11,014 nt of DNA from positions 1 to 11,014 of the forward strand of contig JAUWXV010000119.1 in NCBI GenBank assembly GCA_030616165.1, given 5' to 3'. This stretch comes from a bacterium (GTDB taxonomy: Bacteria > SM23-31 > JAUVVT01). Under the pieces are notes generated by a model, which had not been told where the DNA came from, searched no databases, and saw only the letters and a program-made list of their open reading frames with translations. Positions 5,687 to 11,014 of the stretch are shown piece by piece; position 1 is the stretch's first letter, and every line of letters begins with the position of its first letter. The position numbers and the translations under genes were made by a program.

Positions 5687-6652
5687 TTAAACTAAGTCCT
5701 GAGGTAGAATATGAATGATTTCGTCAAAACCTTCATCGAGGGTTGGTTCTTCGAACTCTGATTCCAACCTATCAAAAATATCCTCCAATTCCCAGAGTTT
5801 TTCTTCTGATATTTCTTTGGTATTTTTATAATTTTCTTTGCATATTTCAATAGGTATTTTGAAGTATTTGCAAATAATTTTGATTTCTTCTTGTTTATGG
5901 GTATGAGCTTCTCTTTGTTTTTTGTACTTTTCTATTATTTTAATAAACCTTTTTCTTCTTTTTTTATTGACATTGGTTCTGTCTATCACAATATTGAGTT
6001 TATTTGAAAGAGTATCTGTTATTAATTTTTCTTCGATATCGTAATAAATATATTTCCATTCAATCTTGTATTCTTCGTTAATAGAGTGAATTATGTCATC
6101 GAGACAAACCCTTACATCAAATGGATGGAATTCTCTGCTGTGAATAGTCTTCCCACATGCCGGGAATCCCACCATTACAGTTAGGGATTGTTCTTGTTTG
6201 AAAAATTTGTGTGAAGGCTTAAATGGAAGGTTTATATTTTTTGCAAATTTCTCATCTGTCTTTGTATTGCCAATTACAATGGAGTTGAGCATATCCATTT
6301 TTTCATTTTCTAATATGTTCTCTAAAATTTCTTTATTTGGTTTGGACTTTTCGGTTTCTTTGCCGATGAAATATCGGAAACTCGGACGGTATTCTTCATC
6401 AAAAGAATTAATAATATTTCTGCATATTGTTTCCTGTGTTTCTCTTGTTGTTGTTCCTTTTGATATGCCAGGCTGGTTTGTTGTGATTACAATATGAAAT
6501 CCATCATCAAGCATCCTTTCTATTATTTCTTTTACATTAGTCTGGAACTCACAGTCCTCGGGATTCCTCGGGAATATATTTCCAGAGGAGGATTTTATCA
6601 GTGTTATATCTCTGTTAAAAAAGACAAATTTTTTCTCTGTTTTATTTTCCAT
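5687..6652 (-). CDS. PNKP-like protein: degenerate HAD phosphatase domain plus 5'-polynucleotide kinase domain
   Basis: A 321-residue cytoplasmic protein in the domain order of animal PNKP: phosphatase then kinase. Residues 8-155 resemble the PNK 3'-phosphatase, with FFNRDIT where the family has DxDxT, ITTNQPGISKG (motif II), KSKP (motif III, Lys104), IGNTKTD (motif IV) and LPFKPSHKFF. The nucleophile position is Asn13 (Asp15 remains) and the motif IV position is Asn129, so phosphatase activity is probably lost. Residues 158-321 are a P-loop kinase: GFPACGKT (162-169), CLDD (185-186), IDRTN (223-227) followed by a basic KKRRKR patch, and the typical family ending FEEPTLDEGFDEI. The likely role is phosphorylation of 5'-OH RNA or DNA ends. 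The ATG at 6652 is preferred over GTG at 6658 because GAGG sits 5 nt before it. It has its own promoter. Confidence 0.8.
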   Translation of the reverse strand: MENKTEKKFVFFNRDITLIKSSSGNIFPRNPEDCEFQTNVKEIIERMLDDGFHIVITTNQPGISKGTTTRETQETICRNIINSFDEEYRPSFRYFIGKETEKSKPNKEILENILENEKMDMLNSIVIGNTKTDEKFAKNINLPFKPSHKFFKQEQSLTVMVGFPACGKTIHSREFHPFDVRVCLDDIIHSINEEYKIEWKYIYYDIEEKLITDTLSNKLNIVIDRTNVNKKRRKRFIKIIEKYKKQREAHTHKQEEIKIICKYFKIPIEICKENYKNTKEISEEKLWELEDIFDRLESEFEEPTLDEGFDEIIHILPQDLV

Positions 6653-6693
6653 TATCACCTCTGTATAAATTTTATTAAATTTACTTGGTTTAA

Positions 6694-7997: not shown

Positions 7998-9410
7998 CTA
8001 AAATTTCTTAATATATATACTTGTATTTTGTCCTTCTATTTCGATTCTATCCTTTTCATCTCCCAATTTACCCGATATTTTCAATGCGTTTGAAGATGTG
8101 CTTTCATGGTAAACCGGGAAATCACAATCTATTTTCCCAAATGTGGTTGATGCACCAAAACTTGCAGAAATTTGCTCTGGAAGAGTTAATTTGATAATTC
8201 CAAAGGAGGTTTCGAGTTTCACAAGCCTTTCCTGGTATGATTCTTTTTTCAGTATATCTTCAACAGTTATATTGCCGTGTCGATTTTCCACAATAACACT
8301 TCCACCTGCATTTTCAATATTTACAGGAGAAAAAGAATTGCTTACTTCAACATTCCCGGATATATTTTTTGCATTAACGAGAGCATGTCCATTTTCCACA
8401 TGGAGATCACCATTAATAGTAATTGCCTCCACAGAACCGAATTGGTTTATTATCTCAGTATTTCCCTGTATATTCTCCGCTTCAACTTTACCGTGGCTGT
8501 TGTTAATTTGTGTTTCTCCATATATATCTCTGCATATAATTGAACCAAAAGAGTTTGTCAGTGTGGCTTTATCACCTAACTCTTCAACGGTTATTTTACC
8601 GTGTCCACCATTAATGATTGAAGTTCCTTTAACATTATAAACAGAAATCTCGCCGAATCGGTTATTTACATTTAAATCTCCTATTACGTTTGTTATATTG
8701 AGTGAACCGTGCTCATTTGTTATATTTGCATCTCCATTGATTTTTTCAGCTGCCAATTCACCAAATTTATTTCTTAAATTTGTTAAACCAGTCAAATCCC
8801 CAGCGGTTAATTTACCGAAACCGTTTGATATCCTAAAACTCCCTGAAACACTTCTCAAATCTGTATCTCCAAAAGAATTTTCTATTTCTAAATCAGTATT
8901 TTCAGGAATTTCTATTTTATAAGATATGGAGAAATTTTTAATGTCGTCTCTATCCCTTTCAGGATAATAAGTTATAATTCTTACCATATTGGGTCTTTCT
9001 TCGATTCTCAATTCCATCTCTTCAAGGAATTCCTGAGCCAATTGTTCCCTTCTGGATGAGACTCTTTTTTCTCCTGTGATTGAGATCTGGTCATTTGTAC
9101 CAGTGCGGACATCAATATCTCCAAAACTGTGTTCAATTTTAATTGTCATTCCGGTTTTTGCAGGAATTGTTATGTTAATGTCTTCTGAAATATAGTTCCC
9201 CCATAATCTTCTTTCTTGATTTTGCTCAGGTTTAACCGATGGAGTCGGCAAATAACCGTGTAACACTGGTAGAGGTGGTAGTTCTGGTAGAGATGGCAGT
9301 TCTGGTGGAGACGGTGGTTTAATATGTTCCATATGTGATTGACCAAAATTTGGAAAAGATATAAATAATATGAAGCAAATTAGAAATAATAGATAAATTT
9401 TAGTCTTCAT
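7998..9410 (-). CDS. exported DUF4097-type beta-solenoid protein with 18-residue Phe/His repeats
   Basis: A 470-residue protein. Residues 1-24 form a signal peptide. Residues 31-61 are proline-rich (PELPSLPELPPLP), probably a flexible linker. From about 75 the sequence is the beta-strand-rich pattern of DUF4097 (putative adhesin). Its core is a solenoid with N-x-F/H-G at exact 18-residue steps: 180, 198, 216, 234, 252, 270, 288, 306, 324, 342, 360, 378. From 216 to 378 the marker alternates strictly Phe, His, Phe, His. Two further Phe turns (403, 424) follow off register. DUF4097 proteins are often encoded with ECF sigma/anti-sigma pairs, as here. The ATG has a strong AGGAGGT (9417-9423) 6 nt before it. 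It is the last gene of the operon, 25 nt after the anti-sigma gene. The exact function is unknown; it may be an envelope sensor, scaffold or surface protein. Confidence 0.85.
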   Translation of the reverse strand: MKTKIYLLFLICFILFISFPNFGQSHMEHIKPPSPPELPSLPELPPLPVLHGYLPTPSVKPEQNQERRLWGNYISEDINITIPAKTGMTIKIEHSFGDIDVRTGTNDQISITGEKRVSSRREQLAQEFLEEMELRIEERPNMVRIITYYPERDRDDIKNFSISYKIEIPENTDLEIENSFGDTDLRSVSGSFRISNGFGKLTAGDLTGLTNLRNKFGELAAEKINGDANITNEHGSLNITNVIGDLNVNNRFGEISVYNVKGTSIINGGHGKITVEELGDKATLTNSFGSIICRDIYGETQINNSHGKVEAENIQGNTEIINQFGSVEAITINGDLHVENGHALVNAKNISGNVEVSNSFSPVNIENAGGSVIVENRHGNITVEDILKKESYQERLVKLETSFGIIKLTLPEQISASFGASTTFGKIDCDFPVYHESTSSNALKISGKLGDEKDRIEIEGQNTSIYIKKF

Positions 9411-9435: not shown

Positions 9436-10104
9436 TTAAAAATAAGAAATATTTTCAGACATTTTTTGCAGTGTTTCTACCTTTTCTTTATAAGCAAGAG
9501 CAAGGTATTTTCTCGCATTTATGTTATATTCATTTTGATTTATAGCTTCTTGGCATTGTAATATGAATTCGTCAAGTAAAGCCAATTTTTCTTGATATAA
9601 CTGATAAAACTCAGGGTCAATATATTCTTCACTGCTTTCAACGAGTTTAGAAAATTTTTCAATCGCAGCAAGATACTCATTTTCAGTTTCTTCCAATTCC
9701 GCTGCTGCTTCTGCTTGAAGCCTTATTTTTTCTTCTGGGGAAAGAGGTCTCAGGAAATAATAGTTGAGCCCGACAGCTAATAAGAGTATAAAACTTATGC
9801 CAATTACAGCAGGTTTTAGTGGTATTATTTGTCTGGATGGTATGAGGTTTTTGATAATGCTTCTGATTTTTTCTTTTAAGGGTATTTTGGCTATTTTACG
9901 TTTAATATTTGACTGAACGACATTGTTAATTTTTTCCCATAATTCTTCTGGTGCTTTGAATTCAGGGAGAGTTTTGACTTTTTTGTTAATCAAGATTTCT
10001 ATTTTCATTTCATTTTTACAATTTTTACATTCCTCAAGATGATTTTCAAGTTCAGGTGTTAAGCCTGATTCCTCATATTTTCTCCAAAAATTCTTACATT
10101 TCAT
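9436..10104 (-). CDS. membrane anti-sigma factor with zinc-finger (zf-HC2) domain
   Basis: A 222-residue protein. The N-terminal cytoplasmic part has the anti-sigma zinc-binding pattern Cys3 ... His22-x3-Cys26-x2-Cys29. A single membrane helix spans about 96-117. The outside part (120-222) is helical and acidic, with YLAAIEKFSKLVE (144-156) and ARKYLALAYKEKVETLQ (197-213). This type of C-terminal region is common in anti-sigma factors of candidate phyla and Acidobacteria-like groups. It should bind the sigma factor encoded just upstream and release it on an envelope signal. The start overlaps the sigma stop by 11 nt (10094-10104). Its ribosome site GGAGGT (10118-10113) lies inside the sigma gene 8 nt before the ATG, so translation is coupled. 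Confidence 0.88.
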   Translation of the reverse strand: MKCKNFWRKYEESGLTPELENHLEECKNCKNEMKIEILINKKVKTLPEFKAPEELWEKINNVVQSNIKRKIAKIPLKEKIRSIIKNLIPSRQIIPLKPAVIGISFILLLAVGLNYYFLRPLSPEEKIRLQAEAAAELEETENEYLAAIEKFSKLVESSEEYIDPEFYQLYQEKLALLDEFILQCQEAINQNEYNINARKYLALAYKEKVETLQKMSENISYF

Positions 10105-10666
10105 CTTTTAAGACCTCCATATAAGGGAGTAAATTTTTTCTTAAAATTGATTTTGCTGCTGAAAGTTGGGATTTTGAAGTTCCCGGTGCAATATTCATAA
10201 TTTTTGATATTTCCTCATGCTTAAAACCTTCTACCTCATGAAGAACAAAAACAGTTCTGTATCCTTCCGGGAGTTTTTGAATTTCTTTTTCTATAATGAC
10301 ATGAACAGAACCTGGTTGCTTTTCCATATAAGGTAGTGAAGGGATATCATCTATTACATCAAAACTTTTATCTTTTTCGTATTTCTTCCTTTTTCTTAAA
10401 TTATCGAGACTTGTGTTAACAGCCACCTTATAAATCCATGTGGATAATGAAGAATGTCCTCTGTAATTATTGATATTTTTGAATAGTTTTATAAATATAT
10501 CTTGTGTTGTATCTTCTGAATCCTGTATATTTCCAATCATACGGACGGCAGTTGAAAATACTTTATCTTTATACATATCAAATAATTCCTTAAAGGCGTT
10601 TTGCTCTCCTTTTTTACATCTTTCTACTAATTCAGTTTCTGAAGTTGTTCTATTATGTTTGTCCAA
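10094..10666 (-). CDS. ECF-type RNA polymerase sigma factor
   Basis: A 190-residue sigma factor with only the two ECF domains. Sigma-2 covers about 11-97, with AFKELFDMYKDKVF (24-37), the -10-binding part DSEDTTQDIFIKLF (49-62) and STWIYKVAVNTSLDNLRK (75-92). Sigma-4 covers about 124-178, with LPEGYRTVFVLHEVEG (132-147) and a helix-turn-helix at about 148-172. It should direct RNA polymerase to a small regulon, probably including its own operon. The start is a TTG at 10664-10666 with AAGGG 4 nt upstream; the next Met is inside sigma-2, so no later start is possible. Between 10667 and 10834 no clear promoter stands out on the minus strand; ATGACA with TATATG at 18 bp near 10790-10822 is weak. 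Confidence 0.9.
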   Translation of the reverse strand: MDKHNRTTSETELVERCKKGEQNAFKELFDMYKDKVFSTAVRMIGNIQDSEDTTQDIFIKLFKNINNYRGHSSLSTWIYKVAVNTSLDNLRKRKKYEKDKSFDVIDDIPSLPYMEKQPGSVHVIIEKEIQKLPEGYRTVFVLHEVEGFKHEEISKIMNIAPGTSKSQLSAAKSILRKNLLPYMEVLKDEM

Positions 10667-10834
10667 AAATCCCTTCTTTCTATTTTTTTAGACGATAAAA
10701 CTTTTAATAAGGTTGGTTGTAATTCTTCTTAATGCAACTTTTTTAATTTGATATATTCATAAATTTTATTTTTATTGTGAATAACCTGTATCCATACATA
10801 TATTTAAGCATAACTGAATTTGTCATGTCTATTC

Positions 10835-11014
10835 CCATGTTAAATAACATATGTTCTTTTTTGTAATTTTTATAAAAAAATTTGACTGGAGTTAAGCATT
10901 TTTTTAATGAGAAAATAAAAAAAGTTCCTTAATTTTTATATTTGTATAATTTTCAAAAATATGTTAACGGACAGAACGCTGCCTGCACACTGTGTTCTGT
11001 CCCTACATAATAAT
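10835..11014 (+). repeat. dispersed ~190-bp repeat, copy 2, cut by window end
   Basis: Same orientation as 2247-2439 and about 96% identical over the first 150 bp. The hairpin arms GGACAGAAC (10969-10977) and GTTCTGTCC (10994-11002) and the inverted GTAG (CTAC, 11003-11006) are kept, with a centre 13 nt shorter. The match runs to the last base, so the true end lies outside the window. It sits upstream of the sigma gene, on the far side of its probable promoter region. Confidence 0.85.

Follow-up and report, generated by a model that had tools for sequence, protein, structure and literature searches.

The solenoid gene and its operon

The window (the whole stretch of DNA that was analyzed, 11,014 nucleotides) carries on its minus strand an operon in which the genes for an ECF sigma factor and an anti-sigma factor lie upstream of a gene for a 470-aa DUF4097 protein (PF13349, now named Toastrack in Pfam). 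The genes of this operon and the parts of the DUF4097 protein are as follows:

10094..10666, minus strand: ECF sigma factor, overlapping the anti-sigma gene (Pfam Sigma70_r2 and r4_2; TIGR02937 over the cut-off)
9436..10104, minus strand: anti-sigma factor with one transmembrane segment and an HxxxCxxC zinc motif (HLEECKNC); weak RsrA match, homologues at the loci of alternating relatives
7998..9410, minus strand: DUF4097/Toastrack protein, 470 aa, the carrier of the ladder (open reading frame; PF13349 32.4 bits against a cut-off of 22.9)
9336..9410, minus strand: N-terminus of this protein, residues 1-25, hydrophobic and signal-peptide-like (sequence; hydrophobicity scan of relatives)
9201..9335, minus strand: Pro-rich linker, residues 26-70 (sequence)
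8907..9200, minus strand: N-terminal cap, residues 71-168, strands and one helix (AlphaFold2 secondary structure)
8259..8906, minus strand: solenoid, residues 169-384, 12 rungs of exactly 18 residues each (periodicity; AlphaFold2)
8277..8873, minus strand: marker column, column 12 of every rung, F F F H F H F H F H F H (sequence and family)
8001..8258, minus strand: C-terminal region and cap, residues 385-470 (AlphaFold2, lower confidence, block pLDDT 51-90)

The first-pass annotation had assigned the protein to DUF4097, and the Pfam score, above the curated cut-off, bears this out. The LiaG equivalog score is 38.5 bits against a cut-off of 285. With the single window protein as the query, a scan of genome contigs for close relatives returned no match; the alignment-based scan of genome contigs found three. 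A sequence search of the PDB with the window protein yielded only noise (best, 1pg6 at E 0.036), and a profile match to the PDB entry 9e5c was dismissed as compositional.

The gene order is conserved among the relatives that share the alternating ladder described below (hereafter, alternators). Of 23 alternator loci, 22 have a homologue of the ECF sigma factor encoded upstream in the same orientation, and 22 have one of the anti-sigma factor; the exceptions are one locus cut by a contig end and one without a detectable anti-sigma factor. Among 20 loci with uniform or His ladders, a sigma factor is encoded nearby in 10, and this anti-sigma factor in one, where it is divergent. A hydrophobic, signal-peptide-like N-terminus is present in the 14 alternators that were scanned, one of which, a close relative of the window protein, also has a lipobox, so that the alternator class appears to be exported. 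In contrast, Toastrack has been inferred to be intracellular and tied to PspC/LiaF, in a PSP/Lia setting (PMC11237479). The Lia-PSP partners PspC and LiaF-TM are absent from the neighborhood of the window gene, which consists of the ECF sigma and anti-sigma genes.

Elsewhere in the window, positions 5687-6658 (minus strand) encode a HAD-type 3'-phosphatase fused to a P-loop kinase, resembling polynucleotide kinase/phosphatase. Positions 1-215 hold an exact 93-bp tandem repeat that runs into a third copy at the contig start. Two copies of a dispersed element of about 150-180 bp, at 2226-2406 and 10814-10994, lack an Rfam match, and the Rfam scan of the window identified no family. The genome of the window contains 47 matches to this element, many of them at contig ends; about 25 are long, and these long copies are mostly 91-96% identical.

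An alternating column in the window protein and its relatives

The residues of the window protein read from 180 to 378 in steps of 18 are FFFHFHFHFHFH (window 7998-9410, minus strand). Re-reading the sequence reproduced the twelve markers reported previously, at 180, 198, 216 and so on to 378, with a step of exactly 18 and zero slip, as well as their codon coordinates (F180 at 8871-8873 and H378 at 8277-8279, minus strand). Position 396 is Leu, and the series stops after 378. The last ten markers alternate perfectly between Phe and His, as do only two of the 252 possible orders of five F and five H. Over all twelve markers of the window protein alone, the shuffle p value is 0.047, and the alternation in this single protein is suggestive; what makes it solid is that 39 non-redundant relatives show the same pattern, mostly without fault. 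With regard to the flanking residues, the Gly that had been noted after the marker is found in 10 of 12 cases; the Asn that had been placed directly before it instead lies two residues before (11 of 12). The marker codons are mixed (TTT and TTC for Phe, CAC and CAT for His) and DNA identity between rungs is about 45%, so that a recent repeat expansion can be dismissed.

Relatives were gathered in about 890 genomes, mostly with an HMM built from a four-sequence alignment, and rungs were placed with a position matrix blind to the marker column, resulting in a classified set of 85 non-redundant proteins with at least 8 rungs. An aromatic and a non-aromatic residue alternate at the marker column in 39 of the 85, a fraction that gives no share for the DUF4097 family at large because the query was derived from alternators. 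The aromatic residue is F or Y and the small polar one is N, S or H, in the pairs F/H, F/N, F/S, Y/S and Y/N. In another 24 proteins, the marker column is uniform (G, S or H, and in shorter proteins also N), and the remaining 22, including two F/H proteins that fell below the threshold (L016 and L039), are mixed or irregular; one group of relatives (L126-L144) has irregular ladders. Alternators occur in five phylum-level groups: one contains the window along with bacterium SM23_31 and candidate division KSB1, and the other four are those to which G149, G195, G276 and G357 belong. Their ladders span 10 to 20 coils. The two-coil alternation, proposed from one protein, is kept in its homologues across hundreds of coils. 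The rung number is even in 35 of the 39 alternators, as if coils were gained or lost pairwise; among uniform relatives, odd rung numbers (7, 9, 11) occur.

The 36-residue period is confined to a single column. Across the 39 non-redundant alternators, identity in the marker column is 0.92 between rungs two apart and 0.01 between adjacent rungs; columns 6, 10, 11 and 13 alternate weakly, the remaining columns hardly at all, and the opposite turn (columns 1-5) lacks comparable homogeneity. Within proteins, identity is 0.89 among the polar markers, compared to 0.44 on permutation, and 0.97 among the aromatic markers, compared to 0.53; the other columns are close to their permuted values, with the exception of columns 10, 11 and 13 beside the marker. 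Thus, the autocorrelation suggested by the first-pass annotation does recover the 36-residue period in homologues, and its proposal of a true 36-residue repeat applies to the marker column but not to the rest of the window protein, where identity is 0.30 at lag 18 compared to 0.25 at lag 36.

The survey also revealed other ladder arrangements. Eight relatives from one phylum-level group (L069, L070, L071, L072, L076, L078, L084 and L085) have a near-unbroken His column ending in Arg, HHHHHHHHHRRR, and are, as far as the sequences indicate, better candidates for a His array than the window protein. At L034 (648-3824), two ladder genes are adjacent in one operon, the first F/N and the next Y/S. 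In L165 (G000:C327, 3837-4775), a second DUF4097 protein from the same genome, the column is uniformly Asn; this gene adjoins a sigma and anti-sigma pair of the opposite orientation.

Predicted fold, packing and evolution of the column

AlphaFold2, run with the window protein and three relatives, produced a model with a pLDDT of 88.4, mostly 93-98 in the solenoid, in which the N-terminal region, seven-stranded and intertwined in the Toastrack fold, is predicted as strands and a helix. The repeats form a beta-solenoid in which every 18 residues contribute two strands, and the marker closes a strand just ahead of a turn. The model of a Y/S relative (G003b, about 24% identical) has a pLDDT of 91 and the same 18-residue pattern. 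By VIA-align, the solved structures of the adhesin-like Toastrack proteins 3jx8, 3lyc, 3ljy, 4opw, 3pet and 4qrk match with Z of 11-15.5 and rmsd of 2.5-3.2 Å (Z 15.5 for 3jx8 and 3lyc, 15.0 for 4opw, 12.1 for 4qrk); with Foldseek, solved Toastracks match only weakly (E about 1e-3, TM below 0.35). AlphaFold2 and VIA-align together place the protein in the Toastrack fold, a right-handed single-stranded beta-helix like 4qrk and 4opw. The span ratios in the structural alignments correspond to a coil of 17-18 residues where the comparison is with Toastracks or RTX rolls, and to one of about 22 in polysaccharide lyases, near the values typical of these families. The two models and the span ratios thus agree with the previously proposed 18-residue solenoid coil, with a one-position column running regularly along it. 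Polysaccharide lyases and tailspikes were among the structure matches; these reflect a common beta-helix arrangement, and no enzyme activity was read from them.

The composition of the columns suggests where the side chains point. Charged residues amount to 0-8% in the core columns 2, 6, 8, 15 and 17 and mostly to 37-52% in the outward columns 1, 3, 5, 7, 9, 14, 16 and 18; column 12, although non-aliphatic, has only 5-6%. Gly or Ala occupies column 10 in 46% of polar rungs vs 5% of aromatic rungs (p 3e-35), and column 6 is bulkier in polar rungs (p 1e-16). The simplest picture compatible with these trends is that column 12 forms a half-buried corner, with each aromatic ring lying over a hole in the next rung. 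The packing would be no plain volume balance, given that Y-type proteins have larger rather than smaller residues at column 17 of the aromatic rungs; total core volume differs between the two rung types. Nor is the alternation sterically compulsory, because bulky His ladders without it exist (the unbroken ladders of L069-L072).

The marker column evolves in blocks, although the rungs are ancient and have not been homogenized. Among relatives with 18 rungs, a given rung resembles the same rung of another protein (about 0.3-0.5) more than it does other rungs (about 0.25), and orthologous rungs are 52% identical, compared to 28% for non-orthologous ones. Against this background, the column switches nearly as a whole: S is replaced by N at 8 of 9 polar rungs between L096 and L099, and Y by F at 9 of 9 aromatic rungs between L042 and L120. 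For 11 orthologues with 18 rungs, a small set, we inferred 32 marker changes by simple parsimony on a quick tree built from the two caps only, and 23 of these changes fall on three branches (8, 8 and 7). Relative to a null weighted by the changes at other columns, the clustering of marker changes has a z of 9.1; other columns, which range from -2.0 to 3.9 and are highest at 10, 11 and 13, provide the contrast that safeguards this result.

A proposed side-chain ladder and its alternatives

We favor, with reasonable though by no means full confidence, a reading in which the marker column is a ring-over-hole side-chain ladder in an exported Toastrack beta-solenoid belonging to an ECF sigma/anti-sigma operon. 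The protein would be an exported right-handed beta-solenoid in which one 18-residue rung makes one coil; since the coil is predicted to be 18 residues long, column 12 of successive rungs would stack about 4.8 Å apart. Located before one of the two corner turns, it would form a binary ladder in which rungs with F or Y take turns with rungs bearing H, N or S. A given ring would lean over the hole that small residues at columns 10 and 12 leave in a neighboring rung, and staple the two rungs together. Because neighbors must fit, the column would evolve in blocks, and coils would be gained and lost in pairs. Of the ideas in the first-pass annotation, the folding clamp fits best once it is understood as a stacked ladder in which rings pack over holes, and a stabilizing role for the ladder is plausible. 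The rod itself is probably an envelope-stress-induced structural or adhesive element, as the operon suggests together with a DUF2807 relative that is required for biofilm formation and attachment (PMC10949514).

Comparison with known systems places this ladder among related arrangements. With the Toastrack proteins (DUF4097 PF13349, DUF2807, DUF2154; LiaG, LiaF, LiaX; structures 4qrk, 4opw, 3ljy, 3pet, 3jx8), the window protein shares the Pfam match, the helix type and the coil length by span ratio, but its class differs in apparent export, in operon and in being a long rod of 10-20 coils with a two-letter ladder. Beta-solenoids such as pectate lyases and HET-s carry ladders of Asn, Ser, Thr or aromatic residues, each built by stacking one and the same residue (PMC6027354). 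The window family resembles them in the use of polar and aromatic residues and, as predicted from the 18-residue coil, would do so in same-column stacking and presumably in stabilization; unlike in these ladders, adjacent rungs hardly ever share the residue, two kinds alternate rung by rung, and the whole column switches its letter as a block. Ice nucleation proteins share a beta-solenoid with a regular aromatic column; however, they have 16-residue coils, an unbroken Tyr column and TxT water-organizing motifs, and none of these features is found in the window protein, in which the coil is 18 residues and there is no TxT array. RTX beta-rolls likewise have an 18-residue coil, made of two halves of nine residues each with Gly turns, whereas the window protein has a hydrophobic core, lacks tandem GGxGxDxUx calcium nonapeptides in its sequence and aligns to the rolls with Z of only 5-8.6. 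We found no description of an alternating ladder in the literature on DUF4097, Toastrack and ladders, which was covered mostly outside subscription journals.

An unlikely, though serious, alternative is that the ladder serves as a binding surface, in which rings spaced 9.6 Å apart contact a partner that is itself periodic. This partner could be a glycan or polysaccharide strand that repeats about every 10 Å, or another copy of the rod docking knob into hole. A column that stays perfectly homogeneous for as many as 20 rungs is otherwise seen typically in arrays whose function is periodic, and only one of the two similar corners is homogeneous. The structural neighbors include adhesins as well as polysaccharide lyases, the attachment phenotype of the DUF2807 relative points in the same direction, and in ice nucleation proteins the tyrosine ladder has been proposed to act as a dimer interface (PMC10727499), likewise of the knob-into-hole kind. 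Nevertheless, the letters vary widely (G, S, N, H, F/H, F/N, Y/S), which would be odd for one shared ligand, and the depletion of charge and the hole pattern suggest that the column is at least half buried. Rather less probable still is a specific version in which an exposed comb of rings at this spacing joins two rods like a zipper or recognizes a polymer that repeats about every 10 Å, for example a glycan strand, as the output or sensor of the sigma/anti-sigma envelope-stress operon. If such a comb were real, the block changes of letter would represent co-evolution with the edge of the partner.

A coil of 36 residues with four strands would place F and H in two uniform ladders, each at a corner of its own, and would account at once for the alternation, the block changes and the even rung numbers. 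We consider it very unlikely given that outside the marker column the period is 18 and 36 is not preferred, that uniform relatives have odd rung numbers and that the structural alignments to solved Toastracks and RTX rolls indicate a coil length of 17-18 residues.

The metal- or ligand-binding ladder of five His proposed in the first-pass annotation had to be abandoned as highly improbable: His is kept within the F/H clade (the window protein, G005, and L065, L066 and L039 of another phylum-level group), but this column is N or S in most alternators and G, S, N or H in uniform DUF4097 proteins, one His is replaced by Tyr in L039, and the His residues, two coils (about 9.6 Å) apart with Phe between them, would be too far from each other to share a metal ion. 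That the alternation is a relic, left when a 36-residue unit was amplified or when gene conversion acted among the repeats, would be in line with the nearly always even rung number. This idea has scarcely any probability left and is largely refuted by the low DNA identity of rungs with mixed codons, by orthologous rungs being far more alike than rungs within one protein and by the clustering of changes on branches, with the non-marker columns of the window protein likewise not favoring lag 36.

Under the preferred reading, that of a ring-over-hole ladder, a strict two-letter ladder retained in five phylum-level groups while other columns drift would constitute a natural experiment on the constraints acting on stacked side chains. 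The block changes, all S to N or all Y to F, would make neighbor-to-neighbor epistasis directly measurable, and the ladder would provide a simple rule for the design or alignment of solenoids. For the family itself, the ladder marks a coherent operon class within a large family of unknown function.
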